Part shown: positions 1-35,962 of the stretch, in pieces | How the letters are laid out: each line of letters opens with the position of its first letter | How positions within the stretch are numbered: the stretch's first letter is position 1 | IMG/VR virus record: IMGVR_UViG_3300044726_000183 | Span: 1-51,326 of that record | Reading direction: 5' to 3' (one strand) | DNA: 51,326 nt | Source of the DNA: a virus | Notes under the pieces: generated by a model | What the model was told of the DNA's origin: nothing | Seen by the model: the letters and a program-made list of their open reading frames with translations, nothing else | Database searches by the model: none | Program-made: the position numbers and the translations under genes

Positions 1-138
1 TACGGCATCGGAGCCGGCTCGTCCTGCCCAGCTTCCGAGCCGGCGGAGAGGCGGGTGTACGCCGCGGCCAGCTTGGTCGATGAGTAGGCGGCGCCGGCAG
101 CACCGAGGTCCCGAGAGAACCCGGCGAAGAGGGCGATG
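1..138. repeat. Terminal direct repeat, left copy
   Basis: These 138 bases recur at 51189-51326 with one difference (A at 12, T at 51200). The repeat lies inside the capsid gene, and joining the ends there keeps that gene in frame. The change is a third-base GCT/GCA alanine difference. It most likely marks a circular assembly, hence a circularly permuted or terminally redundant genome, rather than a functional repeat. Confidence 0.95.
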
Positions 139-524
139 ATGTCCTCTTCCTTCTTGCGCCGCATGGCGTTGCCGATGAAGCGGCCGGCGCGAGCCATCAT
201 CGCTTCCGGGGTCCGCTGGATAGCCCGGTCGGTGAGGATAACTTCACACCCAACTTCACCGGCAGTGAACTGCTGGGTCGAGGGGATGAGGCGCTGCGGG
301 TTGGAAATCGGCACGTTCTCGGCGAGGGCCTGTGCCTGAAGCACCTGCCCGAACTTTGGCATGTTCACCGAGAGGCCGTCACCGTCCGCGAGCTTCACTT
401 TGGTGACAAATTCCGTCACGAAGGTCTTCTTCTCGATGTACTCGCGCGCCGGCGAGATGATGGTCGGAAGTACATTCGTGAGGTCGGCGGTGGTTGTGTT
501 TCCGCCGGGGGCATACGTAGGCAT
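1..524 (-). CDS. Major capsid protein, N-terminal part (continues at 51188)
   Basis: Residues 1-174 of a 298-aa protein that forms the capsid shell. ATG is at 524-522, directly after the scaffold-like gene's TAG at 525-527, with GGAAGG eight bases upstream. Codon 175 is split by the linearisation point (bases 2, 1 and 51188). The start MPTYAPGGNTTT is followed by a region typical of HK97-type shells, including an acidic/hydrophobic E-loop-like stretch and a helix near residues 115-150 with KKEEDIIALFAGF. Position right after a scaffold-like gene, and the C-terminal half with MKREQERNIHLRAWDIV, resemble the capsid family of marine and environmental short-tailed phages. That family placement rests on recalled pattern, not a search. 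Confidence 0.8.
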   Translation of the reverse strand, partial: MPTYAPGGNTTTADLTNVLPTIISPAREYIEKKTFVTEFVTKVKLADGDGLSVNMPKFGQVLQAQALAENVPISNPQRLIPSTQQFTAGEVGCEVILTDRAIQRTPEAMMARAGRFIGNAMRRKKEEDIIALFAGFSRDLGAAGAAYSSTKLAAAYTRLSAGSEAGQDEPAPMP

Positions 525-1520
525 CTATGACCTTCCCAATGCTTTCTTCGCGTTGGTGAAGTCGGTTTCGGTGATGGCGATGCCGTCCGGGGCCGAATCG
601 AACCCGTAATCCATGTGCCGCCGAATAACTTCACGAGGGTCTAGCGAGGGAGTGCTCGCGCCCGTAAGCATCGGCGGGTTCTCACCGCCGTTCTCCGCAC
701 GCATGTCGTTGCGGATAGCCGCCTCGTGCGTGGAAAGCTGCTTCTTATGCCATGCCATGAACCCCTGCTGGACCGAATCCATGTACGCGGTCAGCCAGTC
801 TCGGGTGTCCCCCTCCTTCTGAGAACCTGCCTCCAAGTGCTGACGCGCCTCGGATGGGATGTTCTCGTAGAAGGGGAGGGTGCGAGCGGTCGCGCCGAAC
901 TGGCGGGCGGCCGCTACGTTCCAATTCTGGATTTCCTCGTTGAGGATGGCGGTGCGGGTCTCCTCGGGGATGACCTCCGCCTGAGCCTTACGCCGCGCGA
1001 CTCTCGCCGCGGTCACTTCGTCCATCCAATCCTGTTGGACTTGTGTGCGTTCGGCACGGGGCAGCCGTTCGAGTTGCTCGAAGTTCCGGTCGATGCCAGC
1101 CCATTGCTCCGCTTCCGCGGCGCGGGTGGCCTCTTCGCGCTGTTGCTGTTGCAGCAAGTTGCTGTAACGGCTCTGCGCCCGGCGCTCGATGTCAGCCCGG
1201 ACTTCCTCATCTTCGAGGAGGGCCTTCTTTTCTTCGGGGGTTAGCTTTGGCTTGGCGGGCTCTGCGGGTGACGGCGGTGCAGGAGCTTCCGGCGCAGCGG
1301 CCGAAGCGGGAGCGGGAGTGGCTGCGGGCTGTTCGCCGGCGCCCTCCGCGGGGGCTTCATCCTCGGACCAACCGTAGGCTTCGCTGGACCACCCCTTCGT
1401 GATGTCGATTTCCGGTGCCGCAGGTGTCGGGGTCTCGGCTGCGGGCGGGGTTTCCGCCGGCGCTGGCGTTGCCGATTCTGCTGGGACCAGAGGCTCTGCG
1501 ACCGAAGAGGGTTGCGTCAC
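525..1520 (-). CDS. Scaffold-like protein upstream of the capsid gene
   Basis: A 331-aa acidic protein with a GTG start. About 95 residues of Ala/Pro/Glu-rich, low-complexity sequence lead into a helical, Glu/Arg/Gln-rich middle (residues 95-200, for example LLQQQQREEATRAAEAEQW). Composition, predicted helicity and position immediately before the major capsid gene are what capsid scaffolds show. Scaffolds guide shell assembly and usually leave the head. The TAG stop abuts the capsid ATG, so the two are probably translationally coupled. No protease gene was recognised. It could instead be another assembly chaperone, since the assignment rests on context and composition only. Confidence 0.6.
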   Translation of the reverse strand: MTQPSSVAEPLVPAESATPAPAETPPAAETPTPAAPEIDITKGWSSEAYGWSEDEAPAEGAGEQPAATPAPASAAAPEAPAPPSPAEPAKPKLTPEEKKALLEDEEVRADIERRAQSRYSNLLQQQQREEATRAAEAEQWAGIDRNFEQLERLPRAERTQVQQDWMDEVTAARVARRKAQAEVIPEETRTAILNEEIQNWNVAAARQFGATARTLPFYENIPSEARQHLEAGSQKEGDTRDWLTAYMDSVQQGFMAWHKKQLSTHEAAIRNDMRAENGGENPPMLTGASTPSLDPREVIRRHMDYGFDSAPDGIAITETDFTNAKKALGRS

Positions 1521-1609: not shown

Positions 1610-4600
1610 CTACCGCGCGAAGCTGGGGCGCTTACGCCCGCTCGACTTCTTGGCCTTGCCGCGCGAGCCGAGGCCCCCTCCGCTGCTGCCGCTGGGCTGT
1701 GCCGCGAGCACGTCGATGAGCTCGACGTCGCCCACGATTTGCGGGCGGAACCATGCCGTGATGCGCTCGCCATCCTCGGACGCTTTCCACTCGCTGTAGG
1801 CATCGCTGTACTTCCGGGCGATGGCGGTGCGGGCGGCGTACATGGTGTCCTCATCGATTTCGCCCTTGTCGCGCATGTCGTAAAGGGCGTACTTCCCCTG
1901 AAGGCCGGGGTTGCTGGCCTGAAGCTGACGCACCCGCGTGACGGCCTTGTCCACGGCGCGGGTCCGCTCCGGGGGCACGTCCTCGTACTTCGAGTTGTTG
2001 GCGATGAACTCGTTGTATTGCTGCATGTCGGTGAGGTACTGCGTGACGATGGGCGACTTGTTCCACGCGAGGGTTTCCTTCAGCGCGGCCCACCGGGTCT
2101 CGCCCACGCGGGTGCGGAGGGCGTTGATTTGGCGCTCGGCCTCTTCGTAATCGAGGCCCTTCTCGCCGTCCACCGCGGGGTCGTCCCATATGCCGAAGTA
2201 GGAGTCGAGGTCCACGTCGCGCTGCGTGGTCGGCTCGAAGTCTTCCCCGGCGGTCTCCGCCTGCTCGCGGAGGGTGCGGAGTTGCTTCTGATTCCCGATG
2301 AACTGCCGGCGCCACGCGTCCGTGGTCATCTGCCCGTTGGTGAGTTGCGCGTCCCACACGCTTTGCGCGCTCGCGTACTCGGAGCCGAGCTTCTGGATGA
2401 ACGTCTTGTTCGGGTCGTTCTCCCGCTTCGTGAGGTAGTTGTCTATCTCCGGGTGTTCCTTGCGGAGGGCCTCGCGCTGCTTGGGGCTGAGCTCGTAGAT
2501 GGTGTTCGGCGGGCGAAGCTGGTTGTTCTTCGCGTCCACCACCCAATACTCGCCGGGGATGGAGTCGAGGATGCCGACCGCCCGCTCGTAAGGCGTGGTC
2601 GGGGAGGACTTCAGGCCGACGAACTCCGCGCCCACGCTGACCCATGAGCCCTTCCCTTGGAAGGCGTCGAGCGCGTTCTGCGAGAAGATGGGGAGCACCC
2701 GCTCCATGTTGTCCATGAAGTAGTCGCCGAAGTCCTCGTACTGCTCGCCCGTGAACTTGTCCTCGCCGGCCTTCACCGCGAGCACGGCCGTGGTCAGGGG
2801 GCTCGCCTTGTTCTCGATGAAGTTGACCGAGGCGCTGCCGGGGAACTCCGCCTCCTCCGCCTTCCCGACGCCGCGGGTGTTCAGGCCAAGCTGCTCAGCC
2901 ACGTCCGGGGCGTTGGCGAGCTCTTGGAAGAACGTCCGCGCGAGCGGGTCCAGCGGCCCGAAGAGGGAGATGTCGGAGTCGCCCACGCGCACCCGTCCGA
3001 AGTTCGGGGAGGTGATGATTTCCTTAAAGTCTTCGTAGGACTTGATGTCCTGCGGGTTGCCGAGGCCGGGGCCGAACGTGTCCTTGCCCCGCGACTGGAG
3101 GAGGTTGGCGGCGGCGGTGGTGGAGGCAATCATCCCGAACGTCTTGATGAGCTCCCGGCGAGCGTAGGCCCCGGACACCCCGCCCTTCGTGAAGGCGTCT
3201 TGGATGAGCGCGAACTGCGACATCATGAAGCGCGGGGCGCCGAAGACGATGCCGGCCACGGGGTTCATGCCCATCTTCGTCGCGCCGGTGAGGTGGTTGG
3301 CGATGTTCACGGCCCCGTGGAGTTGGTCGGGCTGGATGACATCCCCGAGGCCGGCCGCGATGTTGGCCGTGCGCTGGTTCCGCATCATGTTGGCGAGGGC
3401 CTGCGCGCGCATGAGTTCGGTCTGAGTCTCGAACTGCCGGCGGGTGCCGCGGAAGAACGCGCCCGCCACCGGGATTTTCTCCAGCGGCGCGGAGCCCACG
3501 TCCGTGATGTATTCCTCCGGGCGCTTGGAGAAGGCACCGCCGGCCTTGAACACGTCATCGAAGACGGTGGCGCGCATGTGCTCCGGGGCCGCCTCGGAAA
3601 TGATGTTGCGGACATGCTGGCGGGCGCCCTCGCGTGCGCTCTCGGAGACGAAGGAGTGCAGGGAGCGCGTGAAGGACTTGGCGAACGCAACGGGGTGGGT
3701 CCACGCCTGATAGGCCCCTTGGATGAGGCCCGAGCCCAAGTCGCCCGACGTGGACGCGGTGAACATTGCGCGGGATGCAGCCGCCGGCCATTCAATCAAA
3801 ATCTTGTTGAAGTAGCCGCCGCTCTCTTTCACCTTTGGCACCTCCGCGGAAATGCCGGCCCACTCCTGATTGATGCGCTCCGCCTCAGCGGTGTCTATCT
3901 CTGCGGTGTAGCGGGTGCGCTCCCCTTCGCCGACGTGGGCGAGGCCCGCCTGCTGGCCCTCGTTCGGTCCCGGCCGCGGTGCGCCGATGACATCCCGCCG
4001 GCCCTCCGGCGCGAGCACGTCCCCGAGCGGTTGCTGTCCCGCAGCCCGGCCGGCGGTAGGGACCGGCCCCGTGCGGCCAATGTCCTCGGGTGCGAGCACG
4101 TCGCCGAGAGGCTCCTGCCCGGCAGCGCGCCCGGCTCCGGGGACAGCCCCGCGCTCTCCCATCTCTGCGGCGGGGGAGTAGCGGAGGTCCTCGAACTCGG
4201 GGGCCTCGGCGCCGATGGTCGGTTCCTGCCGGGGAGCTCCGGGCCGCTGCGGCCACTCAGGCTCGCTGAACGCGCCCTCGGTTCCGATGTCGCGCGGCCC
4301 TAGCTCCGGTGCCCCGATGACTTCTCTCTCTGGCGATGGCGCTCGGGCGAGGAGGTCGCCCACCTGTCCCTCGCCTGTCCCCGTGATGACGCGGCCCTCC
4401 GTGCGGAGGAGGTCGGGGAGCGCCTGCGGGGTTTCGCGGGCGGGCACGGCCGGGAGCTCGGGTGCCGGCGCGGGCTCTTCCATGCCGCCGCCGAACATGT
4501 CCGGGCCCGTCTGCCGCGGGGTGGCGTCGATGACGTCCGCCACTTCCTCGACCGCAGCGGGGCGGTTGCGATTGTTGAAGTTGGTCTTGAGCTCTTCGAT

Positions 4601-7600
4601 TTCGAGCTCCAGCTTCACGATGTCCGCCTGCGCGTCGTCGATGATGGCGCGGGCCATGCCCTCGAAGTCGCCGCGGGGGTCACCCTGATACCGCTTCGTC
4701 AGTTTGCTGACGAGGCTGGCCGCCTCCCGCTTCGCCTTGAGGATGAGGTCCTCTTTGGCTTTGAGTTCATCAACCGCCCGGAGCACGGTCTCTATCTGTG
4801 CATCGTCGCCAAACAGCCCGCCCTGCAAGCCGACCGCTTCCGCTTCCTTGAACGCCTGCGCGCCGGCCTCCATCGAAGCGCGGACCTTCGCGCGGGTGAG
4901 CGCCTTCTCCGGGTTGATGACGTAGCGGGCAACCGCGGCGCGCACGTCCGCTTCCTTGAGGTTGTAGCGGAGGGCTATCTTCGCGATTTCCGCGGCCGAC
5001 TCCTGCTGCGTCTTCCCCATCTCGGTGAGGCGGTCCACGAGGTCGTCGGGGATGCCCCGGTCGATGGCGTCGAGGTCGTCGATTTCCGTGGAGCTCATGC
5101 GGAGTTCTTGCTGGATGCTGCCGATGTCCTCGCCGTCTTCGCGGAGGATGCGGACGGCATCGAGCTTCTCGCGGAGGTTGGTCTCGGCGGTGCTGAAGTT
5201 GGAGACGCGGGCCATGCGCTTCAGCGTGTTCACGTCCGCGGGGTTGGTGAGGTCCGCCTCGATAACCTGCCAGTCGGAGCGGTCGGCGAGTTCGCCGGCG
5301 GCGGCCTTCCGCTTCATCACTTCGAGGCGGTGGTGGCCGCGGATGACGACGTGCTCGCCGGTGTTCACATCCTTCGCGACGAGGCCCGGTTCGAGCCGGT
5401 TGGGGTCGAACTTCTCCATGATGCTCTGGACGCGGGACTCCTTGTACGTCAGGCCGGGGTCTGCATCGCGCCCTTGGAAGAGCTCCGGCTTCTCCGTGAT
5501 TTCGTTGTGGGCGAGGTCCACCGCCTTGAGGGAGACCTTGGGCCCATCGGCAGCGTCGTCACCGCTGCGGGCGACGGCTCCGAGAATCTTCGCTTCGTCG
5601 AGGCCACCCGTTGCGCGGAGGGCGGCACGGCCCACGCCGGCGGGCATCGCGGCGAGGACGCTCCGCTTCAGGGCCTCCGAGTTGTCCTCCCCTTCGAGCT
5701 TCGCGGAGGCGAAGCCGTACCCGGCGCGCGCTGCGAGGGCGGCGGGGGAAGACGGTCCCGTAGCCGCTTTGAGGATGCTGCGCCCGAGGCCCGGCTCTTC
5801 CGGCGGGATGAAGCCAGTGTCGCCCGGCTGTCGCCCGGTGAGTTCCGCGCCCTGCTCTTCGGCGAGCTTCTGGCGGGCGCGGGCGCGCATCTCCGGCTTC
5901 ACGGACGGGTCACTGGCGATTTTCTCAAGCTGCATGATGCGCGAGCGGCGGGCGGAGTCGGTGTCGAAGAAGCCCTCGAACTCCCCGCCGGTGTCGGTGG
6001 TGGGCTCACCCGCGGCCACGCGCCGGTCGATTTCTGCGTAGCGGTTAGCCCGTGCGCCGGGCCCTTCGAGGATGACCGGCTGCCGCCCGTTGCGGTCCAC
6101 GTACTCCTGCGTCCACGCCTTGCGGATGTCTTCGCGCCGGGGGAAGTTCGGATGCTTGGTGTCGGGCTTGCCGGAGGCGTCACGGACGGATTGGTCGAGG
6201 CGCTTGTACTCGGCGATGTCCTCCGGCGACTTGCCGAGGGCCTCCGCAATCTGGTCGCCCCGCATCCGCACGGGCTGGTTGCCCTCCTGCCCGGCCATGC
6301 GCTGCCGGCGAGGCGCGACGGCGAGCTCCTGCCCCTCATCGAAGAGGTCGAAGAGGCTGCGCTGTCCTTTAGGTGCCGGCTTGGGCTTGGCGACGGGCGC
6401 GCCCCGGTCGAAGAGGTCGCCCTGTTGCTCGCGCCAGCCGTTGAGCTCCGCCTCGGTCTGCATCGTGTCTTCGACTTCGCCGAAGAGGGATGGGCGCTTC
6501 ACCGTGGGCTTGGGCTTCGGCACTTCGGGGAGCTCGAACTCGGAGCGGAGGTCGCGCTCGGGGTTCACCCAGCCCTGAATCATGTCGCCGCCGCCGTAGT
6601 CGGCTTCCCAGCCGCCGAACCCCGCCCTGCTGATTACCTCGGGAACCCCGTCCTCATCGACCGCGGCCGTGAGGGCCGAACGCACGTCTGTCCCGCGGAT
6701 GGAATCCTTGTAGAACCGCTCTCCAAATCGGTTGTCGAACGCCCGCTTTTCTTCGTCGGTGAGAACTCCGCGGATGCGGTCGAGCTCTTCGGGGAGGATG
6801 GCCTCATCGTCGAGGAGAAGGTCCACATCACGCTTCGCCCGCATGGGAATTACGCGGCTGCCCTCTTTCGCTCGCGGCGGGTCGCCCGGCCGCATGAAGC
6901 CCTCGGGGACGAATTGGGCGAAGTCGTCGGGGGTCCTGCTGCCCTCTTTCGCGCTGTAGGCGGCCTTCCCGAAGTAGTGACCATACCCACCGCGGGGCTC
7001 CGGCAGCCCCTCGAACTCTTCAACCGTGCCGTGCCGGAACTTCTCCCCCTCCGGCACGCGGCGGGTGACAGCCGGCGCAGGGGCCTCTTCGAGGAGGTCC
7101 TGCGGCCTGATATTTCGCGCTTTGCGTGCAGCGTATTTGAGGCCGCCGGGCCCGAGGCCGCCGATGACACCACCGACCAGCGGGCGGTATTCCTCGGGGA
7201 CTTCCTTCAGGCCGGGGATGTGCTCGCCCCATTGGGCTGCGCCGGCGGCACCCGCTGTAGCGGTGGCAGTCAGCGCGAGTGGTGTCTCGAAGATGGCGCC
7301 GGCGATTCCCCCGGCCTGCGCGGAGCGGCGGATGAGGGGCAGCTTGCCGATGGTGCCGGGGCCCGCGTAGGAGAGCGGGTTGGCCGCTGCGGTCGCACCG
7401 ATGCGGATGCCCGGCGCGATGTCCTCATCCCGCTGGAAGGCCCGCCCGGCGCGCATCTGCGCCTTCACTCCAGCGACGACGGGGTTGCCGCCCGTGTCGT
7501 AGCCGGCCTGCTGCTGCGCGCGGATGTGACTCTGGACGTTGGAAATCGGGTTCCCGACGAGGTTTCGCTTGGTCCCGTACTGCCCCTGCGCGTTGACTTC

Positions 7601-8035
7601 ACCGCGGGTGAAGAGGGCCGCGGGGGTGGCGGCCGAGATAGCGTCCACCTTTTCGAGGCCCGCCATGATGCCCTTGGCGGCGGCCATGTTGGGCCGGATG
7701 TAGACATCCTGCGCGGCATCGTTGACGAGGCTCATCGCCTTGCCCGAGATGCTCTTCAGGCCGCCGAACGGGCCCTTGTTCTTGTCCTTCTTTTGCGTGG
7801 GCAGCGGCGGGAGGCCCGCCTGCACGTAGGGGTCATTCTTCCGGTCGTACTCGATGAAGGCGGCGCGCGACATCTGCCCGAGAGACGGGATGCCCCCGGA
7901 CTCACCGTATTTCTGCTCCATCGCAGCCGTGACGAGGGTCGCGGTGCGTTCGCGTTCCTTGGCCGCGTAGACCCCATCGGGCTCCCGGCCGAAATCGTTA
8001 CCCCACCCGCGACCTATTTGCCGTCGCCGTGCCAT
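1610..8035 (-). CDS. Giant polyvalent virion protein with ART-like and ParB-like domains
   Basis: At 2141 aa this is the largest gene of the window. Residues about 334-505 look like the ADP-ribosyltransferase-type domain of polyvalent proteins: FRHGT, then GGYGHYFGKAAYSA, then VIPMRAKRDVDLLL, ending in a NPERDLRSEF strand. Residues about 833-945 match a ParB/sulfiredoxin-type domain, with KVSLKAVDL, a substrate loop, and VIRGHHRLEVMKRKA. A coiled-coil-rich stretch (950-1160) and a Pro/Glu-rich linker with a tandem repeat (1297-1345) follow. The alpha-helical part from about 1412 resembles large polyvalent-protein-associated domains. Its place among head genes suggests packaging and ejection with the DNA, where the enzymatic modules could act on host or phage targets. 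Activity is inferred. TAATG overlap with the 708-aa gene upstream. Confidence 0.65.
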   Translation of the reverse strand: MARRRQIGRGWGNDFGREPDGVYAAKERERTATLVTAAMEQKYGESGGIPSLGQMSRAAFIEYDRKNDPYVQAGLPPLPTQKKDKNKGPFGGLKSISGKAMSLVNDAAQDVYIRPNMAAAKGIMAGLEKVDAISAATPAALFTRGEVNAQGQYGTKRNLVGNPISNVQSHIRAQQQAGYDTGGNPVVAGVKAQMRAGRAFQRDEDIAPGIRIGATAAANPLSYAGPGTIGKLPLIRRSAQAGGIAGAIFETPLALTATATAGAAGAAQWGEHIPGLKEVPEEYRPLVGGVIGGLGPGGLKYAARKARNIRPQDLLEEAPAPAVTRRVPEGEKFRHGTVEEFEGLPEPRGGYGHYFGKAAYSAKEGSRTPDDFAQFVPEGFMRPGDPPRAKEGSRVIPMRAKRDVDLLLDDEAILPEELDRIRGVLTDEEKRAFDNRFGERFYKDSIRGTDVRSALTAAVDEDGVPEVISRAGFGGWEADYGGGDMIQGWVNPERDLRSEFELPEVPKPKPTVKRPSLFGEVEDTMQTEAELNGWREQQGDLFDRGAPVAKPKPAPKGQRSLFDLFDEGQELAVAPRRQRMAGQEGNQPVRMRGDQIAEALGKSPEDIAEYKRLDQSVRDASGKPDTKHPNFPRREDIRKAWTQEYVDRNGRQPVILEGPGARANRYAEIDRRVAAGEPTTDTGGEFEGFFDTDSARRSRIMQLEKIASDPSVKPEMRARARQKLAEEQGAELTGRQPGDTGFIPPEEPGLGRSILKAATGPSSPAALAARAGYGFASAKLEGEDNSEALKRSVLAAMPAGVGRAALRATGGLDEAKILGAVARSGDDAADGPKVSLKAVDLAHNEITEKPELFQGRDADPGLTYKESRVQSIMEKFDPNRLEPGLVAKDVNTGEHVVIRGHHRLEVMKRKAAAGELADRSDWQVIEADLTNPADVNTLKRMARVSNFSTAETNLREKLDAVRILREDGEDIGSIQQELRMSSTEIDDLDAIDRGIPDDLVDRLTEMGKTQQESAAEIAKIALRYNLKEADVRAAVARYVINPEKALTRAKVRASMEAGAQAFKEAEAVGLQGGLFGDDAQIETVLRAVDELKAKEDLILKAKREAASLVSKLTKRYQGDPRGDFEGMARAIIDDAQADIVKLELEIEELKTNFNNRNRPAAVEEVADVIDATPRQTGPDMFGGGMEEPAPAPELPAVPARETPQALPDLLRTEGRVITGTGEGQVGDLLARAPSPEREVIGAPELGPRDIGTEGAFSEPEWPQRPGAPRQEPTIGAEAPEFEDLRYSPAAEMGERGAVPGAGRAAGQEPLGDVLAPEDIGRTGPVPTAGRAAGQQPLGDVLAPEGRRDVIGAPRPGPNEGQQAGLAHVGEGERTRYTAEIDTAEAERINQEWAGISAEVPKVKESGGYFNKILIEWPAAASRAMFTASTSGDLGSGLIQGAYQAWTHPVAFAKSFTRSLHSFVSESAREGARQHVRNIISEAAPEHMRATVFDDVFKAGGAFSKRPEEYITDVGSAPLEKIPVAGAFFRGTRRQFETQTELMRAQALANMMRNQRTANIAAGLGDVIQPDQLHGAVNIANHLTGATKMGMNPVAGIVFGAPRFMMSQFALIQDAFTKGGVSGAYARRELIKTFGMIASTTAAANLLQSRGKDTFGPGLGNPQDIKSYEDFKEIITSPNFGRVRVGDSDISLFGPLDPLARTFFQELANAPDVAEQLGLNTRGVGKAEEAEFPGSASVNFIENKASPLTTAVLAVKAGEDKFTGEQYEDFGDYFMDNMERVLPIFSQNALDAFQGKGSWVSVGAEFVGLKSSPTTPYERAVGILDSIPGEYWVVDAKNNQLRPPNTIYELSPKQREALRKEHPEIDNYLTKRENDPNKTFIQKLGSEYASAQSVWDAQLTNGQMTTDAWRRQFIGNQKQLRTLREQAETAGEDFEPTTQRDVDLDSYFGIWDDPAVDGEKGLDYEEAERQINALRTRVGETRWAALKETLAWNKSPIVTQYLTDMQQYNEFIANNSKYEDVPPERTRAVDKAVTRVRQLQASNPGLQGKYALYDMRDKGEIDEDTMYAARTAIARKYSDAYSEWKASEDGERITAWFRPQIVGDVELIDVLAAQPSGSSGGGLGSRGKAKKSSGRKRPSFAR

Positions 8036-10161
8036 TAGGCAACAAACCTACGACGGCCGTAGCTCCCTGACGATAGGTTGGTGAGCGGGGCGCTCCGCAT
8101 GATTTGCTCGTTGAAGTCGGGGATGTACTGCCCCTGAGCCTTGATGACGCCCTGAATCTGCTCGCGCGTGGACGGCAGCGCCGTGAGGTAATTCGACGCA
8201 TTGACGTCCTGCCCGCCGCGGATTCCGGTCTCTATCCGGCCCCCGCCGGTAGGGGCAGCGATGGAGGTGAAGGGGTTGCCGGGGGAGATGGGCTGCGTAT
8301 TGAACTGGCCCACCGGGGTGCCCGTGCGGAGCATGTTGATGACCGGCGAGTTCTCGATGGCGGAGTTGGACGCGGCGCCGGGCATGAGGTTGGCGGGGAA
8401 GAGCGCACGAAGCTGCTCGATTGGGATGCCGAGGTTGGCGGCGAGTTGGCCGAGAAGCTGTTCGATGTTCGAGGTGTCGGTGCCACCGGGAACGGCCGAT
8501 TGCGCGACGGGTGCCACCCCCGCTGCCGAGGCAGGAGTAGCAACGGCCGCCGCTTCCGTGCCGCCGGCCTCGTTCCCGGTGTAGACCCCGCCGGTGTTTC
8601 CTCCACCAGCAAGGTTTGTGAGCGGCTGCTCTGCCGCAGCGGGGGCGGGTGCGGGCTGGGCGGCGGCCATCCGCGCCATCTGTTCGGGCGTCATGGGCTG
8701 CGCGGGGTTGCCGGGCGCCGGTGCCAGCGGGTTCGCAACGGGAGGCGGCCGGAGCTCCCCGGTGGCCGGGGCCATCGCGTTCGGGTCCGCGGGGTTGGAG
8801 GCGGGCATCGGCATCGCGGGCACTGGCGGGAGGGCCTGCGCGGAGTCGATGGGCGGGCGGCCGAGGTCTCCCGTGGCCTGCGCGTAGGGGTCCGCGGGTT
8901 GTCCTGTGCCCGGCGCGCCCGGACCGGGCTCCGTGACGGCCTGCCCGGTACGCGCCAGTTGTGTCGCGGCCGCTTGGCTTTGCTCCACCTGTGCAACCTG
9001 CTGGGACTGCTGCACGTAGGCATCGCTCGCCTGACCGGGGAGTTCAGTCATCCGCGCCTGTGAGACGGCGGCATCGACTTCCTCGGGGGAGCCGTACTGC
9101 ATGATGGTGTTCGTCGCGGCGATTTGAGCATCGCCCGTGACTTCCCCACCGGGGTGCCGGCGGATGGCTTCGGAGACCGAGACGGGGCCCGCGTCGGTGA
9201 TGCCAAGCGATTCCGCGTCGGCGGTGTCGCCGTCGAGCACCGCAGGGCCACCAATCATCGGGCCGGCAGACGATGGGCCGGATGGAGGCACGGCGCCGGC
9301 GATAGAGGCGGCCGAGGAGAGGGCGAGTGCGTTGAGCGGGGCGCCGAGGTTGGAGACCCAATACTGGTAGCCGAGCCAGTCCACGGGATTCTGCATGAGG
9401 GCGATGCCGCGGTCGAAGAGTTCCAGCATGAGGCTGGAGTTGAACTGGCGGCGGTCCTCTGCGAGGCCAAGGTCGAACTGCCGGCCGCTTTCCGTGCGGT
9501 CGGCTTCGGCAATCTTCTCCCGGCTGGCGACGTCGGCGGCGGCGATGCGTTCGCGCGCTGCGATGTCTTCCCTGTTAACAGCGGCCTGCGTGTCGATGCC
9601 GTAGCGGTCGGTGGCATCCTGCATCCCGGCAATCTGGAGGTCGGCCGCTATCTGTGCGGCGTTGCGCGCCGAGGCGCCGGCCTCTTGCAGTTGGGCGATG
9701 GACATGCGGGCAGCGATGTCCGCGGCGTTGCGCGCGGTCGCGCCGGATTCCTGAAGGTTGGCGATGGCGAGGTCGGTGAGGTTGTTCTTGTCGTTGTCCG
9801 TCATCGAATCGGACGGCGTGGACTTCCGCAGCCCGGTGGGGTCACTCATCCCCTGCTTCTGCTGCGGGGTGAGGCTGGAGTAGCCGCCCTGCGCGAGCTT
9901 CATGCCGAGCTCGAATATCTGGTTGTAGGCGGCGCCGGAGACCATGCCCGAGCCGATGTCCGAGGGGTCGAAGGTGCCTAGCCCGAACTTCGCGAAGGAG
10001 GCGTTACTGAAGAGGCCGCCCTCGGAGCCGTCGATGGTGCCGTTGGCGAGCTTGTTCGCCTGAGTGAGTGCGAAGTCGTGGGCCCACTGCTCATAGGTGG
10101 CCGGGGCCATCGAGCCGGGGACGCGCCCGCCGGTGGTGTCATAGGGAAGTTCGACGACCAT
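8035..10161 (-). CDS. Large Ala/Pro-rich internal virion protein candidate
   Basis: A 708-aa protein of unknown function. Residues about 125-225 are helical with an imperfect internal duplication: IANLQESGATARNAADIAA is echoed by IAQLQEAGASARNAAQIAA. A Gln/Arg-rich helix follows, with AERIAAADVASREKIAEAD-like spacing. Residues about 390-560 are Pro/Ala/Gly-rich and probably disordered. Helical repeats plus a flexible tail, between an M23-like protein and a giant polyvalent protein, fit an internal or ejected protein. It starts at ATG 10161 inside the ATGA shared with the upstream stop, and its TAA overlaps the next ATG. No known family was recognised. Confidence 0.5.
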   Translation of the reverse strand: MVVELPYDTTGGRVPGSMAPATYEQWAHDFALTQANKLANGTIDGSEGGLFSNASFAKFGLGTFDPSDIGSGMVSGAAYNQIFELGMKLAQGGYSSLTPQQKQGMSDPTGLRKSTPSDSMTDNDKNNLTDLAIANLQESGATARNAADIAARMSIAQLQEAGASARNAAQIAADLQIAGMQDATDRYGIDTQAAVNREDIAARERIAAADVASREKIAEADRTESGRQFDLGLAEDRRQFNSSLMLELFDRGIALMQNPVDWLGYQYWVSNLGAPLNALALSSAASIAGAVPPSGPSSAGPMIGGPAVLDGDTADAESLGITDAGPVSVSEAIRRHPGGEVTGDAQIAATNTIMQYGSPEEVDAAVSQARMTELPGQASDAYVQQSQQVAQVEQSQAAATQLARTGQAVTEPGPGAPGTGQPADPYAQATGDLGRPPIDSAQALPPVPAMPMPASNPADPNAMAPATGELRPPPVANPLAPAPGNPAQPMTPEQMARMAAAQPAPAPAAAEQPLTNLAGGGNTGGVYTGNEAGGTEAAAVATPASAAGVAPVAQSAVPGGTDTSNIEQLLGQLAANLGIPIEQLRALFPANLMPGAASNSAIENSPVINMLRTGTPVGQFNTQPISPGNPFTSIAAPTGGGRIETGIRGGQDVNASNYLTALPSTREQIQGVIKAQGQYIPDFNEQIMRSAPLTNLSSGSYGRRRFVA

Positions 10162-11510
10162 CAGGCATTCCCCGTTCTGCGATAACGAAGCCCGCGATTG
10201 AGCCTGTCGAAGATGCTACCCCGAAGACCGGATGTCCCGCCTTCCGAGAAGGGCGTCGAGCCGGTCCCCGTGTTGGGGTTGGCGGCGATGGAAATGGTGC
10301 TCTTCTCGACGCCGAGCCCTTCGTCGAACAGCGCGCGGCTGCCGGTGCGGGCTCCGCCGGTCTGCGTGCTGAGGCCCGGCTGGTCGAGGACCTTCGGCTT
10401 CGGTGGGTTCGTGCCGGCCGGGACCTCCCACCAGTTAAGCGGGGTCTCCGGCGGGCGGCCCCCGCTCGTGCCTCGTGCCACCCAATCCTCGGGGCTGCCG
10501 GCGGGGCGCAGCGGGGTGGGCAAGTCGGGCACGACGGGAAGATTTTCGGAGAGGCGGTTGAAGGCTTCTTGGAAGAGCTCCTGCCCGGACTTCACGCGGG
10601 CGGGGTTGGCGAGGGCGCCGGAGAGGCGGGGTGCGCCATTGGCGGCGGAGTCAATCATCGCCTGCTGGCCTTCGCGGGCCTCGGTCACATAGCGGAGTTG
10701 TTCCTGAAGGGCGTTGCCGGCATCGGTCGCGGCGTCGGCGCGGAGGGTGTATTCGCGCTCGTATTTCGCGGCGGCGTTCTTCGCGGCGACGGTCGCGGGG
10801 TCCGTGGAGTTGTAGAGGTCGTAAGCGGAGGAGATGTCCGACATCGAGGTGCCGCCGGCGGCGTACTGGTCTTCGTAGTCGGCGAGCTCGCCGTCGAGTT
10901 GGAGCCATTCGCGGACCTGTTCCGGGGTGGGCTTGGGGATGCCGAGCTCTTTGGCGAGGTCTCCGTCGCCGTCGAACCACGGGCCGAATTGGGAGTAAAG
11001 CTGGTTGTAGCGGCGGCGCTTCTCCCAATACTCGGAACCTTCCACGGGGCCCCCCATTTCGCCAACGTTTGAGATGTCCTGCCCTAGCAGGGTGCCTTGT
11101 GGATAGCGATTATCACCCACTGCGTTGAAACCAAGATAGGGGGAGGGGTCAACCGAGCGCCCCGAGCCGTCATACGTGTCGTAGCTGAGGTGCGGGCCGG
11201 TCGATGCGCCGCTGTTCCCGGTGAGGCCGCCGGGCTGCCCGGCCGACACGGTATCGCCCACATGCACGCCGGCCTGAGAGAGGTGGCCGTAGTTGTGGAT
11301 GACGCCGTTGGAGTCGCGGACCTTGACGGAGATGCCCCAGCCATCCGTGCCGGCGCCGGCGTGGATGACGGTGCCGCCGGTGGTGAAGTAGAACTCGGTT
11401 CCCACGGGGACGCCGATGTCCAATCCCTTATTAACACCGCCCGAATCGAGTTGTTCGTTCGTTGGTCCGAAGAGGGCCGTTATGCGGCCGCTGCGTACAG
11501 GAATAGGCAT
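10161..11510 (-). CDS. Virion protein with decayed M23 (LytM) peptidase domain
   Basis: A 449-aa protein. Residues about 5-125 follow the M23/LytM fold: DIGVPVGTEF, YGHLSQAG, VGDTVSAGQPGG and TGPHLSY. Active M23 enzymes bind zinc through HxxxD and HxH. Here the first His is Asn27 (NKGLD, Asp31 kept), and the last motif is H107-L-S109, so two metal ligands are missing. His76 remains. The domain is therefore probably non-catalytic and may bind peptidoglycan or serve structure. The C-terminal 320 residues are helical, then Pro/Gly-rich, with no family recognised. A second phage M23 protein at 37715-38428 keeps all ligands. The position between the portal genes and internal proteins suggests a virion part. 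Confidence 0.65.
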   Translation of the reverse strand: MPIPVRSGRITALFGPTNEQLDSGGVNKGLDIGVPVGTEFYFTTGGTVIHAGAGTDGWGISVKVRDSNGVIHNYGHLSQAGVHVGDTVSAGQPGGLTGNSGASTGPHLSYDTYDGSGRSVDPSPYLGFNAVGDNRYPQGTLLGQDISNVGEMGGPVEGSEYWEKRRRYNQLYSQFGPWFDGDGDLAKELGIPKPTPEQVREWLQLDGELADYEDQYAAGGTSMSDISSAYDLYNSTDPATVAAKNAAAKYEREYTLRADAATDAGNALQEQLRYVTEAREGQQAMIDSAANGAPRLSGALANPARVKSGQELFQEAFNRLSENLPVVPDLPTPLRPAGSPEDWVARGTSGGRPPETPLNWWEVPAGTNPPKPKVLDQPGLSTQTGGARTGSRALFDEGLGVEKSTISIAANPNTGTGSTPFSEGGTSGLRGSIFDRLNRGLRYRRTGNA

Positions 11511-12026: not shown

Positions 12027-14051
12027 CTACCGCCTCGGGCCGGGCGCGGCCGTCGCGGGGTTGGCCCCGGTGGTCGGGGCGATGCCGTTCTGGGCGCCTT
12101 TGACTGCCCCGTTTGCACCGGCGGGGGCTCCGTTAGTGCCCTCGGGCCCCCCTTGGCCGGCGCCTGTACCCGGACCGGGCGTCTGCCCGGCTGTGGCCCG
12201 CATGGATTCGAGTGACTGCTGGAACGGGGCGTTCAGGTCCGTCATGCCGCTCTCTTCGGCAATCTGCTGCTGAAGGCGGATTTTGCCAATCATGATGGCG
12301 TCCTGCATGGCATCGGGGAACATCGCCTTGCGCGCGCTGTCGCGTTCGGTCTGGTCCCGGCGAGTCTTCCAATCGGGCCGGTTGAAGCCCTCGCGGGAGA
12401 CCTCTTCCCACGTTGCCCAGCCGTCCCCGCCGGCCTTCATCCACGTCATCATGTTGCCCTGCGCGTCGATGGGGAGGTCGGGCTGGAGGTCCGCCACTAT
12501 CTGGAAGAAGTCCTGAAGGTCCTCCGGTTCGAGGCTGAGATATTCGCCCGTCTTGAAGCCCTTCGCGTCGGTTTTCTCCGTGAAGACGGTGGTCTCTTCC
12601 TTGACGAGGTGCTTCAGCGACCAGAGGTAGTGATGGGCGAGGGTGGACCACTGGAGGGTGCGGGAGTCGATGAGCGGCTTCCACACGGTCCGCATCGACT
12701 GGCTTAGCTGGTTGATGGCATAGCCCGGTTGCTGGGCGCCGCCGACGCCGCGGGCGATGCCGGGGATGGTCGCCATGTCGATATCGACGGCCATCTCCTC
12801 GACGAGGGCGCGGTAATCGACGCCGGCCTGCGCGTCCTTGAAGGCGTTGGTGATTTTCCCCCGAATCTGCTTGATGGTCATCGGCTCGATTTCCCACTGC
12901 TCGGGGTTCTTGTCCGAGTCGCGGAGGGGCTCCATGCCGGCTTCGAGCTCGGCGAAAAGCTGCGGGAAGACGTCGATGTAGGCGCGGTTGGCCCAAAGGG
13001 TGCGGAGGAAGTCGAACTGCGGGATTTCGTGGCGCACGGGGTAGAGGATGCCCACGGCCATCATCTCGAACTCTTTGAAGCCGGTGATGAGCCCGTAGCC
13101 GTGGACGATGCGGATGCCGCCCTTGTGGCGGTAGGCGTGGATTACCCGGTCCTCGCAGACGTAGTAGCACCACTCATCGTCGATGAGCTCGTAATAGGTC
13201 ACTTGATGGTCGTTGGTGGAGGGTGCCTCTTCGGGGAGTTCCTGACCCGGCTTGAGCTTGATGATGTCTTCGATTTGGCCCGTGTCGCCCGTCTTGATGT
13301 GGATGGGCTGGCCGGCCTCGGCGAGGGCCTCTTCGACTTCGTATCGCTGGACCTTGTATCGCTTCACATGGGCGGTCGGGCCCATCGGCGTCATGATTGG
13401 GATGACCGTCCGGGGGTCGAGGGATTCGACGAAGAAGGGCGGGCCCATGAAGCCCTTGTAGCCGTCCACCCGCACGTTGAACATCTGGTTCTTGTCGTAC
13501 TGCATCGGGTCTTCGTCGCCGTCGAGCTTCTCGGATTCCTTGCGCCGGCGGACCTGCTTGTTCCAGTAGTTCGGGAGGTAGGTCTGCTGGATGTACGACT
13601 TCCCGGCGAGAAGCTGCCAGAAGAGGGCCTGCATCCCGACGTAGTTCTGGTACTTCATGTCCATCCACGCGTAGGCGCCGACGACGTGCCGCTGGATGGC
13701 TTCGGCCTTCTCTTCGGAGACGGTGGAGCGGTTCGGGGCGATGTACTGGAAGCGCAGCGGCGACATGAGCATCCCCATTGCGCGGTGGATGATGTCGGGC
13801 GCCTTGCCGGAGCGGGCGTCGAAATGGACGAATCGCTTGCCGGCGGGGATGCCGAGGTCGACCGTCCCCTTATAAAGGGAGATGAAGTGGTCGATGGCCT
13901 CGAAGTTGATGTCGTTTTCGGCTTCGAGCGTTTCCGAGAGTTGGCGGATTTTGTCGGCCTTGCCGACGACGCCGAGGACCCATGAGTCGGGCTTGGGCTT
14001 GTCGTAGCCCTTTTCGCCGGAGTAGCGCATGTCTTTGCGGACGCGGGCCAT
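12027..14051 (-). CDS. Portal protein
   Basis: A 674-aa protein, a usual size for portals of short-tailed phages. It forms the dodecameric ring at the packaging vertex. Support is mainly context: ATG directly follows the TAA of TerL. Also fitting are a long mixed alpha/beta body with the stretch MGMLMSPLRFQYIAPN, the central ESLDPRTVIPIMTP segment (residues about 215-228) and a helical region with MDMATIPGIARGVG-like sequence before the C-terminal helices. The last 60 residues are Gly/Ala/Pro-rich and probably disordered. Confidence 0.75.
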   Translation of the reverse strand: MARVRKDMRYSGEKGYDKPKPDSWVLGVVGKADKIRQLSETLEAENDINFEAIDHFISLYKGTVDLGIPAGKRFVHFDARSGKAPDIIHRAMGMLMSPLRFQYIAPNRSTVSEEKAEAIQRHVVGAYAWMDMKYQNYVGMQALFWQLLAGKSYIQQTYLPNYWNKQVRRRKESEKLDGDEDPMQYDKNQMFNVRVDGYKGFMGPPFFVESLDPRTVIPIMTPMGPTAHVKRYKVQRYEVEEALAEAGQPIHIKTGDTGQIEDIIKLKPGQELPEEAPSTNDHQVTYYELIDDEWCYYVCEDRVIHAYRHKGGIRIVHGYGLITGFKEFEMMAVGILYPVRHEIPQFDFLRTLWANRAYIDVFPQLFAELEAGMEPLRDSDKNPEQWEIEPMTIKQIRGKITNAFKDAQAGVDYRALVEEMAVDIDMATIPGIARGVGGAQQPGYAINQLSQSMRTVWKPLIDSRTLQWSTLAHHYLWSLKHLVKEETTVFTEKTDAKGFKTGEYLSLEPEDLQDFFQIVADLQPDLPIDAQGNMMTWMKAGGDGWATWEEVSREGFNRPDWKTRRDQTERDSARKAMFPDAMQDAIMIGKIRLQQQIAEESGMTDLNAPFQQSLESMRATAGQTPGPGTGAGQGGPEGTNGAPAGANGAVKGAQNGIAPTTGANPATAAPGPRR

Positions 14052-15512
14052 TTAGTAGTCCCCCCACCCGTCGAGCACGGCCTTCAGGCGGTCTTCGCGA
14101 GTCTGGCGGCGGTGGGCCATGATGCTCGACGCCCTCGAAGCTTTCTCGCTGCGGGGTGAGAGTACCTTGACATCGAGGTTCGTGACTATCGGCCGCATCC
14201 GGTTCATGCCCTCGACGTTGTAGCGAGCGGCGTCCACTTCGTCGTCGTCGCGCCGCACCGGGTCCTCGGTGATGGCCTGAAAGCCGGCCGAGGCGTTGGT
14301 TTCCGGCACCTCGTGGTAGGTCTCGATTCCCGAGAGCAGGTGGGTGCAGTCCTCGTGAATCATCCACGAGGCGTGCTCGCCGCAGTTGCAGGTGGAGTCG
14401 AAGAGGCGGGCCATGAGGTTCACGCCGTCCTTGCGCGAGCCCTTCTCGTTGTTGGCCGGGAGGATGGGCAGGTTGGCGTAGGTGCCGAGGGCTTCGATAG
14501 CGCGCGACTGCGAGGTGTCGGCGAACCAGCCCTCCGGGCCCCACATCTTCGTGGCGCGGGTGACTTGCTCGAAGAAGTCGGAGGCGGCGGGCCCTTGCTT
14601 GGAGTATTCCCAAAAGGTGAGGAGGGCGCCGCAGGTGAGCCGGCCGGTGAGGTAGCCGGCGGTGCGGTGGGCGTAGGTGGTGGTGGCGCCCCAATCGATG
14701 CCGCCGTAGACGTCAGTGAGTTGGTCGCGGAAGAACTGGTCGCGGGGCCACATGTGTTTGCCGCGGAAGAACATGTGGAAGACGGCGCCCTCGAAGGCGG
14801 TCCAGTCGCCCTTGAGCATCCGCCGCACCCAAGTCTCGTTGTTGTTCTCCATGAGGTTGGCGATGTAATCAGGCGGGAGAAAGGGGTTGTCTTCGGTGAG
14901 GGCCTGAATGAACTCGTGGGAGGGAGGGAGGGTCCCGTTGACCCAGCGGTCGTACCAGCGTTGCTTGGGCCAGCGGGGCGTCGGGTTGCAGGCCGAGACC
15001 ATCTGGTACGGCGGGTGGAGCGGGTGCGGCCGGTAGTTGGAGAGTTCGAGGCAGGCCGGGCGCTGGCAGTCGCCCTCGCCGGTGGTCCAGCGGAGACGGG
15101 TTTCGAGGTTGTTGTAGACCGGCTGCGCTATCTCGCCGAGCTCCTCGAAGATAATCATCCCGTACTCGGCGGACATGTGGCGCTCCCAATCCTTCATCCC
15201 GGTGAGGACGAGGCGGGAGCCGTTGTGGAAGAGGTAGGAGCCGGTTTTCGATTCGTACTTGTAGAGGCGGTCATCGACGTGCCGCAGCCACTCCATTTCG
15301 GTCGAACGCTGGAGGTCGATGAGGTTGTAGCGGCCGAGGAGGATGGGGATGCCGGGGTAGCGGGTCATCGTCGCTTTGGCGTGTTCGACGAGGTAGCGCG
15401 TCTTCCCCGGACCCACGGCGCCGCCGAAGAGGAGGTGGCGCTTGCCGGAGCGGTGGGCCTCTACCTGTTTGGGGAACGGCTTGTAGCTGTCGCGAATAAC
15501 GATGTCGGGCAC
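14052..15512 (-). CDS. terL: Terminase large subunit
   Basis: A 486-aa ATP-driven packaging motor and nuclease. The ATPase half has Walker A GGAVGPGKT (residues 30-38) and a Walker B-like MIIFEE (119-124, Glu where Asp is usual). The coupling motif ACNPTPRW is at about 174-181. The RNase H-like nuclease half has GGIDWG (Asp273), FADTSQ (Asp332) and DDDEVDAARY (acids near 424-427). GTG start. It is nine bases downstream of the small HTH gene and directly upstream of the portal gene. No clear ribosome site precedes the GTG, so coupling to the HTH gene is likely. Confidence 0.95.
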   Translation of the reverse strand: MPDIVIRDSYKPFPKQVEAHRSGKRHLLFGGAVGPGKTRYLVEHAKATMTRYPGIPILLGRYNLIDLQRSTEMEWLRHVDDRLYKYESKTGSYLFHNGSRLVLTGMKDWERHMSAEYGMIIFEELGEIAQPVYNNLETRLRWTTGEGDCQRPACLELSNYRPHPLHPPYQMVSACNPTPRWPKQRWYDRWVNGTLPPSHEFIQALTEDNPFLPPDYIANLMENNNETWVRRMLKGDWTAFEGAVFHMFFRGKHMWPRDQFFRDQLTDVYGGIDWGATTTYAHRTAGYLTGRLTCGALLTFWEYSKQGPAASDFFEQVTRATKMWGPEGWFADTSQSRAIEALGTYANLPILPANNEKGSRKDGVNLMARLFDSTCNCGEHASWMIHEDCTHLLSGIETYHEVPETNASAGFQAITEDPVRRDDDEVDAARYNVEGMNRMRPIVTNLDVKVLSPRSEKASRASSIMAHRRQTREDRLKAVLDGWGDY

Positions 15513-15521
15513 GCGACAAGG

Positions 15522-15710
15522 CTACGGCACGGGCAGCGGCCGGCGCATGTGGTCCTCAATCCAGTCGTCGATTTCGTCGACGGGGATGCGGATGGCGGAA
15601 TTGACCTTGAGGTGGGGGACCTTCTCCTGCTCAACCCAGCGGTAGGCCAACGACCGGGAGATGCCCATCTTCTTCGCGAACTCGGGGAGGGTGATGAACT
15701 CTTTCTCCAT
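15522..15710 (-). CDS. Small helix-turn-helix (MerR/excisionase-type) DNA-binding protein
   Basis: A 62-aa protein beginning MEKEFITLPEFAKKMGISRS. It has the pattern of single-domain winged HTH proteins: an LPEFAKKMGISRSLAYRWV helix-turn-helix and then a wing with KVNSAIRIPVDEIDDWI. Such proteins act as excisionases or small regulators. Here it is the first gene of the late block, directly before TerL, so it may regulate late transcription or assist DNA recognition in packaging. A longer start at 15719 would add three residues. I chose 15710 because TACGAT lies seven bases upstream, which fits a leaderless mRNA. Confidence 0.75.
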   Translation of the reverse strand: MEKEFITLPEFAKKMGISRSLAYRWVEQEKVPHLKVNSAIRIPVDEIDDWIEDHMRRPLPVP

Positions 15711-15749
15711 AGTCCACATCGTATACTGAGTCCCGCCAAGGAGGCCAGC
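15711..15749. promoter_or_regulatory. Divergent promoter candidate
   Basis: This 39-base gap separates two divergent genes. On the minus strand TACGAT (15723-15718) is seven bases from the HTH gene ATG. On the plus strand TATACT (15722-15727) precedes a leader with AAGGAGG. The core GTATAC is palindromic, so one short segment could serve both directions. No good -35 element was found on either strand. Confidence 0.45.
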
Positions 15750-16142
15750 ATGGCAGACGCCGACGTTGAATACCTTCCCAACGGGAAGCGCATGACCCCG
15801 GAGAACATCGAGCGGTGGTTCGCCGCGGATGTCGTCCCGAAGATGAAGAAGCGTGCTTCGCGGGAGCTCTCGGGGTTCCTGTCGAAGGACGGCAAGGGCG
15901 AAGAGGATGGTGGCTACGAGGGTGGCTACAGCTTCGCGATGGCCGATTCCGCGGGGAAGCGGTTCGTGGTCTACGCGCAGTTCATCAAGGGGGTGTGCGT
16001 GCAGGCCGTGAACATCCCGCTGGAGGAAATGGAGCACATGGCGATGGAGTACGTGGTGGCGCCGGCGGAGATGGCGGCGGCATTGTCGGCCGGGTTGCCC
16101 AAGGAAGATGTGAAGCGGCTGTGGATGCCGGGGGAGGAATGA
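15750..16142 (+). CDS. Hypothetical protein (130 aa)
   Basis: Starts MADADVEYLPNGKRMTPENI after an excellent ribosome site (AAGGAGG, five bases from ATG). The N-terminal third is acidic and helical and contains FAADVVPKMKKRASRELSGF. The middle is Gly-rich, and the end is an acidic helix (LPKEDVKRLWMPGEE). No family was recognised. It is transcribed away from the late block and is followed at once by a zinc-ribbon-like gene, so the two form a small operon. Confidence 0.6.
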   Translation: MADADVEYLPNGKRMTPENIERWFAADVVPKMKKRASRELSGFLSKDGKGEEDGGYEGGYSFAMADSAGKRFVVYAQFIKGVCVQAVNIPLEEMEHMAMEYVVAPAEMAAALSAGLPKEDVKRLWMPGEE

Positions 16143-16143
16143 C

Positions 16144-16605
16144 ATGGTTGAAGTGCTGCACTGTCACAACTGCCAGAACCCGGTAGCCCTCGTCGAGGAG
16201 GGGATGCAGACGACGGCCGTTTGCTTCTCGTGCTCGCGTGCGCTTCAGGAGGACAGGGACCGCCTCGCGGCACCGGGCCGACCGCTTCCGGGGGTGGAGC
16301 AGTACGACTCGGTTCCGAAGAGGACGGGGCCGCCCCGCGGGGTGCTCGAATGCCCACACCCCCACGCAACGGCCAATTTCCAGTGTATGCGCTGTTTGGG
16401 GCGAAGCCGGCTGTGCGGACCCTGCTCGATGGACGGGACGTGTATGCATTGCGCGAAGACGCAGCCGAAGACGGTGGACGCCTTCGTGGCGGGGATTGAA
16501 GAGGGATTAACGGGGCCGGGGCGGATGTCGGGCCCGGACATGGCGAAGGAAGCGAGGGAGCTCGACGACTTCTTCGGCGACGACATGAAAATCAAGATTC
16601 GCTAG
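16144..16605 (+). CDS. Cys-rich probable zinc-binding protein (153 aa)
   Basis: Two N-terminal CxxC pairs (C7-C10 and C27-C30) look like a zinc ribbon. A second cluster near residues 80-103 (QCMRCLGRSRLCGPCSMDGT, then MHC) could bind more zinc. The C-terminus is helical and acidic (ELDDFFGDDMKIKIR). Its GGGGGAGG ribosome site lies inside the previous gene's end, one base from the start. The zinc ribbons suggest nucleic-acid or protein binding. The specific role is unknown. Confidence 0.6.
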   Translation: MVEVLHCHNCQNPVALVEEGMQTTAVCFSCSRALQEDRDRLAAPGRPLPGVEQYDSVPKRTGPPRGVLECPHPHATANFQCMRCLGRSRLCGPCSMDGTCMHCAKTQPKTVDAFVAGIEEGLTGPGRMSGPDMAKEARELDDFFGDDMKIKIR

Positions 16606-27530: not shown

Positions 27531-27679
27531 GGCGCGAAGGCCCCGGATGGGAAACCGAAGACAACATCACCCGAGACTCTGCCGAGTACCGGCGCAAGCT
27601 CGCCGAGGGTTGGCGCGTTATCGACGCCGACCGCGAAACCGGATTCGTGGAGATGGCCCGCGCAAGGAGGCGCCGCTAA
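27527..27679 (+). CDS. Small basic protein (50 aa)
   Basis: Starts MRREGPGWETEDNITRDSAE and ends FVEMARARRRR. A short charged helix plus a basic tail. It overlaps its neighbours by ATGA and TAATG, so it is likely translated; function unknown. Confidence 0.45.
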   Translation: MRREGPGWETEDNITRDSAEYRRKLAEGWRVIDADRETGFVEMARARRRR

Positions 27680-33437: not shown

Positions 33438-33454
33438 GCAGGAGTTGCTACCGA

Positions 33455-33805
33455 ATGACCGCTGCCCAAGCCGAGAAGCCCAAGGCCGAAGAGGCGCCGA
33501 AGGGCAAGACCCCGACCCCCATCCGCCAGCTAAAGTTCGACGGGCTCACCGTCGACACCTTTGTGCTGAACATTTCGGGAAGGGTTGTCCTCAACCCCGA
33601 GAACGCCGACGACGCCGCGCTCATCAACGCGCTGACCGGCGGCAACACCATCCATCTGCCCATCAACGGCTACGTTGTCACCTCCGCCGGCAAGTTCAGC
33701 CGGGACAAGGAAGGGGTGCTCGACAACGTAACGAAAGCGGCCAGCGTGAAAGTTCGCGACGTGGAGTCGGGCTCCGCTCTTGTGCTGGAGACAGCAACAC
33801 ACTAG
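33455..33805 (+). CDS. Hypothetical protein (116 aa)
   Basis: A Lys/Ala/Pro-rich first 20 residues lead to a strand-rich domain (FDGLTVDTFVLNISGRVVLN; TIHLPINGYVVTSAGKFSRD). The beta-rich fold and place between recombination and primase genes fit a small DNA-binding protein, but no motif proves it. It is bounded by strong hairpins on both sides, unlike its tightly overlapped neighbours, so its expression may be set separately. Confidence 0.5.
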   Translation: MTAAQAEKPKAEEAPKGKTPTPIRQLKFDGLTVDTFVLNISGRVVLNPENADDAALINALTGGNTIHLPINGYVVTSAGKFSRDKEGVLDNVTKAASVKVRDVESGSALVLETATH

Positions 33806-33830
33806 CCCACCCAAACAGCCAAGACATGCG

Positions 33831-33856
33831 TGCCCGGAGGGTCTACCTTCCGGGCA
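33831..33856 (+). promoter_or_regulatory. Hairpin upstream of the primase gene
   Basis: TGCCCGGAGGG pairs with CCTTCCGGGCA (11 pairs, one G-T) around a TCTA tetraloop. It lies 26 bases after the previous stop. No T-tract follows, so it may work with the next small hairpin in controlling primase translation. Confidence 0.5.
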
Positions 33857-33868
33857 TTCGTGTCCCCA

Positions 33869-33884
33869 TTGCATGGAGGTGCAA
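33869..33884 (+). promoter_or_regulatory. Hairpin presenting the primase ribosome site in its loop
   Basis: TTGCA (33869-33873) and TGCAA (33880-33884) flank the loop TGGAGG, so the Shine-Dalgarno of the primase gene (GGAGG, seven bases from GTG 33886) is held in a hexaloop. This shape could be recognised by an RNA-binding protein for translational control. Confidence 0.5.
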
Positions 33885-33885
33885 C

Positions 33886-35958: not shown

Positions 35959-35962
35959 CCAC

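Follow-up and report, generated by a model that had tools for sequence, protein, structure and literature searches.

The stretch of DNA analysed here (hereafter the window) comprises positions 1 to 51,326, the full length taken, of IMG/VR virus record IMGVR_UViG_3300044726_000183, and carries on its minus strand, at 1610..8035, a gene for a protein of 2141 amino acids (aa), which we call the giant protein. We consider it moderately probable that the giant protein belongs, as a divergent member, to the polyvalent proteins of phages, here one of podovirus type; it would be made late and probably be packaged, leaving the particle together with the DNA. Phage polyvalent proteins are encoded among virion genes, with ADP-ribosyltransferase (ART) and ParB domains as hub domains, and are held to be made together with the virion proteins, packaged and injected (PMC5512222). 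Like the proteins described by Iyer et al. (2017; PMC5512222), the giant protein is very large, appears to combine several unrelated modules and lies among virion genes, but it differs from them in that no MPTase, no LPD and no polyvalent domain at the Pfam level can be recognised in it and no relative of the whole protein was detected. Measured against the class definition of two or more disparate domains in one chain, the ParB-type module is supported and the ART-like module is probable only. An initial reading made from the DNA letters (the sequence-only reading) had already proposed an ART-like and a ParB-like domain within a head-operon protein; the ParB profile and the gene context agree with that proposal, while the ART test is weaker and the predicted active site departs from that of the family.

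The gene is a single open frame in which a stop-free run of this length has a chance probability of ~1.7e-23 at the local base composition, and its GC content by codon position (0.69/0.475/0.875) follows the same pattern as in the adjoining late genes. Its start codon directly overlaps the stop codon of a 708-aa gene (TAATG junction), and the presumed scaffold gene (GTG start) begins 89 bases past its own stop. The 2141-aa open reading frame (ORF) had been proposed without a strand, and is confirmed here on the minus strand. A 976-aa plus-strand ORF at 5108-8038, of high GC, was considered as a gene and rejected as a shadow of the giant gene because its codon-position GC pattern is mirrored.

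As far as sequence profiles go, we regard the ParB-type module as established. The profile used was built from 25 bacterial loci picked by PF02195 alone, so as to avoid selection, and the hhalign comparison of the giant protein with this independent profile gives a Prob of 66% and a score of 37.3 over 112 columns at residues ~880-1004, against a best score of 23.0 among 150 shuffles and of 30.7 (next 22.7) among 482 control tiles. The match takes in the region past the N domain. Together with links found by BLAST, it defines a ParB N-terminal domain followed by a helix-turn-helix (HTH)-like region at residues 833-1004 (5024..5539, minus strand), so that the module claimed at 833-945 is confirmed by the profile test with its end moved from 945 to ~1004. 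The G900-H-H-R motif of the N domain aligns with GERR, GHHR and GHSR of relatives, and the conserved Arg of G-x-x-R is kept.

The relatives of this segment are distant and consistent in kind. With residues 830-1060 as a tblastn query, the top phage matches are gp43 of Salisaeta icosahedral phage 1 (E 0.06) and the ParB protein of Staphylococcus phage EW (E 0.4), and the top plasmid match is a ParB-annotated Leptospira protein (E 0.4); these three are individually weak, yet all are ParB proteins. The 2319-aa gp43 is annotated as a structural protein and its matching part scores as Pfam ParB_N above the cut-off; it shares a ParB_N segment with the giant protein (29% identity over 78 aa, with FQxR and GHxR motifs common to both), but has a methyltransferase domain, no ART-like module that we could find, another host and a tailless icosahedral virion. 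WP_192505170 of Leptospira plasmid p4 (680 aa) aligns over 178 aa covering the ParB N domain and the region downstream (pairwise E 2e-8), and differs in being plasmid-borne and fused to an InPase domain, with no ART found. InPase domains of this type are known from polyvalent proteins, and the Leptospira protein (481-2523 of locus L091), which combines InPase with ParB, is a plasmid-borne protein of polyvalent type. DdrB of phage P1 likewise carries a ParB-type module (ddrB-ParB, PF18763) within a large head-associated protein, although that model gives P1 139 bits and the present genome no score. Pfam ParB_N (PF02195) itself has no direct above-cut-off match in the giant protein, whole or as an isolated piece, whereas the relatives do match.

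It is quite probable that residues 331-505 (6521..7045, minus strand) are an ART-derived module, a fold that is supported, not proven, by profile alignment and motif order. Using an ART-PolyVal profile built from 79 family sequences taken from IMG/VR, hhalign places its best hit among all tiles of the giant protein (Prob 26-34%, score 27) at the location that had been claimed (334-505), while the next non-overlapping tiles score ~15, the best of 200 shuffles 25.0 and the best of the 482 control tiles 23.0. Four motifs are recognisable, namely H335-G-T, G-x-x-Y354-F, V-I-P-M...L-L-D and A-G-F-G474-G, with NPERDLRS as a possible fifth. H335 (the strand 1 His) and Y354 (the strand 2 aromatic residue) align with the invariant HGT and GxYF of ART-PolyVal, and a MAFFT alignment brings two more motifs into register with the family, VIPMRAKRDVDLLLDD at the third strand and AGFGGWE at AGYDGI. 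Compared with ART-PolyVal (PF18760) proteins such as that of Roseovarius podovirus RPP1, the HGT and GxxYF motifs are thus alike and in the same order, but the giant protein lies under the detection of the Pfam model and has Gly474 in place of the family Asp. A 3Di search with an AlphaFold model of the piece returned, as top viral match, a protein annotated with a "large polyvalent protein associated domain" (E 0.02, prob 0.87, template modelling (TM) score 0.36) and, at viral rank 10, an ART-PolyVal-like protein; against the PDB nothing was significant. This model included ART family rows in its alignment and was by construction biased towards ART, and we give it little weight.

Several results weigh against the polyvalent reading, most of them concerning the ART-like module. 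The ART profile match spans residues ~333-363 only (31 columns, covering the HGT of His335 and the GGYGHYF of Tyr354), and when HMMER scores the ART fragment alongside 500 shuffles it comes third, its score within the full protein being unremarkable. The Pfam ART-PolyVal model (PF18760) has no match at E<=1 in the giant protein (41 bits for the RPP1 control), nor in the isolated piece, and a profile of a second ART subfamily (the phiGT1 type) has no match in the giant protein either. Even with family rows supplied, the model of the ART piece (predicted local distance difference test score, pLDDT, 55) forms no ART core and is confident in a helical insert only. The aspartate present in 78 of the 79 sampled family members falls at Gly474. 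As for the ParB side, the ddrB-ParB model (PF18763) has no match in the giant protein while giving the P1 positive control 138.9 bits, and a single-sequence AlphaFold model of the ParB piece reaches a pLDDT of 46, at which a fold search is meaningless. Finally, MPTase, LPD, InPase and other catalogued polyvalent domains were not found in the giant protein, whole or in pieces, in Pfam, NCBIfam or PHROGs, which are domains that are frequent, not obligatory, in polyvalent proteins. A profile search against polyvalent families and a fold search of both modules had been suggested as checks: the former gives a match with our own ParB profile and a weaker one with our ART-PolyVal profile and fails with the two Pfam models, and the latter does not resolve either module.

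These results bear most directly on a competing explanation, in which the ART likeness is superficial or the trace of a dead relic and the giant protein is a large internal virion or ejection protein whose sole working module, ParB, keeps the end of the genome in place or organised, both inside the head and during entry. The shortness of the ART match, its rank in HMMER, the coreless model and the Gly at the family Asp position all fit this explanation, whereas the location of the profile peak exactly at the claimed place and above the shuffles and control tiles, the collinear motifs and an ART protein in the same operon slot of phage phiGT1 speak against it; we regard it as a possible but clearly less probable account. 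Because the family aspartate is missing, catalytic activity is doubtful, and we regard an active transferase as less likely than not. E477, D479 and D484 lie close to Gly474 and might substitute for it, but the alignment that we prefer does not place D484 at the position of the family Asp; it was considered as the catalytic aspartate and dropped, since the Asp that is conserved across the family alignment belongs to the "DG" motif. The second ART subfamily, with its GTGEGAQAYGHGLYF motif, was attractive by eye and was rejected by the failed profile test. An unlikely variant is that a complete ParB module loads onto the entering genome while the Asp-less ART module has been repurposed, for example in binding nicotinamide adenine dinucleotide (NAD) or ADP-ribose as signals in host immunity, which, if true, would make the giant protein a genome-bound anti-defence protein from a lineage without known relatives.

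The polyvalent reading also draws on the setting of the gene. The ends of the window (1-138 and 51189-51326) are identical at 137 of 138 bases in a direct terminal overlap, and a major capsid gene runs across them (5' part 3..524, minus strand, remainder 50816-51325), its joined frame being 298 aa once the 138-base overlap is removed; the window therefore represents the entire genome of a phage, assembled as a circle of ~51.2 kb. The order on the minus strand is terminase large subunit (TerL), presumed portal, a 166-aa gene, M23 peptidase, the 708-aa gene, the giant gene, presumed scaffold and capsid. TerL (14052..15512) is identified by PHROG 979 (E 8e-19) and Pfam Terminase_6N, the M23 peptidase (10161..11510, 449 aa) by Pfam Peptidase_M23 (E 3e-18), and the capsid protein by Phage_capsid_4 (PF25209) at E 2e-4, under the family cut-off. 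The 674-aa portal (12027..14051) is presumed from its position after TerL only, with no family match, and the 331-aa scaffold (525..1520) from its place between the giant and capsid genes and its acidic, low-complexity sequence. The 708-aa late protein (8035..10161) is, by position and without a family match, probably an internal virion or ejection protein. The head-operon setting that had been claimed is thus borne out by TerL, M23 peptidase and capsid neighbours, and the giant protein is, as in the polyvalent class, encoded beside virion genes; the description of it as a virion-context protein is one of gene order, and its presence in particles is an inference. Gene order and the comparator phages also suggest that the phage is podovirus-type.

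The comparators indicate that the slot between portal and scaffold tolerates accessory proteins, and that an ART there has a precedent. In Sulfitobacter phage phiGT1 it holds gp5, which like the giant protein has an ART-type domain in a podovirus head operon but is 387 aa long, belongs to another ART subfamily and has no ParB that we could see. The slot is occupied in Roseobacter phage CRP-9, between the portal region and the head genes that follow, by a protein of 1395 aa and in Sinorhizobium phage phiM6 by one of 812 aa that matches a cell-wall hydrolase slightly below the Pfam cut-off; Pseudoalteromonas phage Slicky01 has no large gene there. As a separate observation, phiGT1 gp5 (4918-6081 of locus L188) is annotated as hypothetical and its ART-type domain reads YHGSPH...GTGEGAQAYGHGLYF...NFVVFD.

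Late-operon location alone is no proof of packaging, and the giant protein could instead be made late and do its work inside the cell that produces it, for instance in assembly or host takeover; we think this quite unlikely, as comparator phages keep accessory head-operon proteins between portal and scaffold, and gp43 of Salisaeta phage 1, with its related ParB, is annotated as structural. Plasmid-like partition of the phage genome, to which the usual order of ParB N domain and HTH-like region would lend itself, is highly improbable for a module buried inside a 2141-aa late protein with no ParA among the proteins scanned (some small ORFs were left unscanned).

As a divergent polyvalent protein, the giant protein would be made late alongside the head proteins and probably packaged as an internal protein of the particle. 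The M23 peptidase, probably a virion-associated cell-wall hydrolase, would open the wall locally, after which the giant protein would enter with the DNA. Its ParB module, N domain and HTH together, would probably attach to the phage genome as it enters or, alternatively, may carry out nucleoside triphosphate (NTP)-dependent nicking or hydrolysis, as proposed for other ParB-type polyvalent domains, which published work sees as nucleases or binders regulated by NTP (PMC5512222; PMC9503650). For the ART-like module a host macromolecule is the probable target; alternatively, it may bind NAD or ADP-ribose or act on NAD-derived signals. ARTs in polyvalent proteins are held to modify host targets (PMC5512222; PMC9503650), and ~44% of phage ARTs occur in settings that point to head packaging (PMC9503650). 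That injected enzymes act at the start of infection, as the sequence-only reading put it, is what this published precedent (PMC5512222, PMC9503650) would suggest.

The remainder of the giant protein is less readily assigned. After the ParB module comes a charged, probably helical segment (residues 1004-1160, 4556..5026, minus strand), judged by composition and by helices in a low-confidence model, and then a Pro/Gly/Ala-rich linker (residues 1160-1430, 3746..4558, minus strand), recognised from composition and sequence, which holds a short duplicated peptide, GRAAGQ[EQ]PLGDVLAPE. The C-terminal region (residues 1440-2141, 1613..3718, minus strand) has no match in libraries or collections and seems compact, by composition only. 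The part proposed earlier as a "large helical C-terminus" includes this linker and a region that may be compact. There is no clear transmembrane segment, the top 19-residue hydropathy being 1.45 at residue 1593.

No significant full-length relative of the giant protein was found in Pfam, PHROGs, PDB, annotated phages, plasmids, IMG/VR or GTDB, and piecewise searches of phages, plasmids, IMG/VR and GTDB gave none for its C-terminus; its N-terminal 330 and C-terminal 700 residues match nothing in any library or collection searched. Nor did tblastn, run on 80 IMG/VR loci retrieved by TerL, find relatives of the giant protein, the presumed portal or the capsid protein. When five proteins of this phage were searched against annotated phages, significant matches came from TerL and the helicase alone, all below 60% identity. 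By these comparisons the phage stands apart in sequence space among the collections searched.

The polyvalent class and the presence of both domain kinds within it are already known. What appears new is a divergent member whose predicted ART active site is unusual and in which a ParB N domain is joined to an HTH-like region, from a phage that has no close relatives in those collections. It would add a very divergent orphan example of the polyvalent strategy to a podovirus-type head operon, a finding useful to specialists and not very surprising, and it illustrates that curated family models can miss such proteins entirely. The altered ART active site gives one specific testable prediction, and the portal-to-scaffold slot appears as a recurrent site for putative effector or wall-hydrolase proteins.

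Some further genes deserve mention. The M23 peptidase has a long low-complexity C-terminus and is a candidate virion cell-wall hydrolase of the head operon. Immediately upstream of TerL, a protein with a C-terminal HTH_17 (15522-16145, minus strand) is a candidate small terminase. On the plus strand lies a 706-aa SNF2-type helicase (27547-29667), whose nearest relative found, at 48% identity, came from a GTDB search and lies on a siphovirus-like contig of 44.7 kb binned in an Omnitrophota metagenome-assembled genome; the contig was rejected as a relative since it shares only the helicase among the parts tested. An 837-aa primase-helicase-like protein (33445-35958, plus strand) matches AAA_25 and DNA primase and carries a YdaS-like segment at its C-terminus, and the protein at 35939-36565 (plus strand), with an SLT-like lytic transglycosylase match slightly under the Pfam cut-off, is probably the endolysin.

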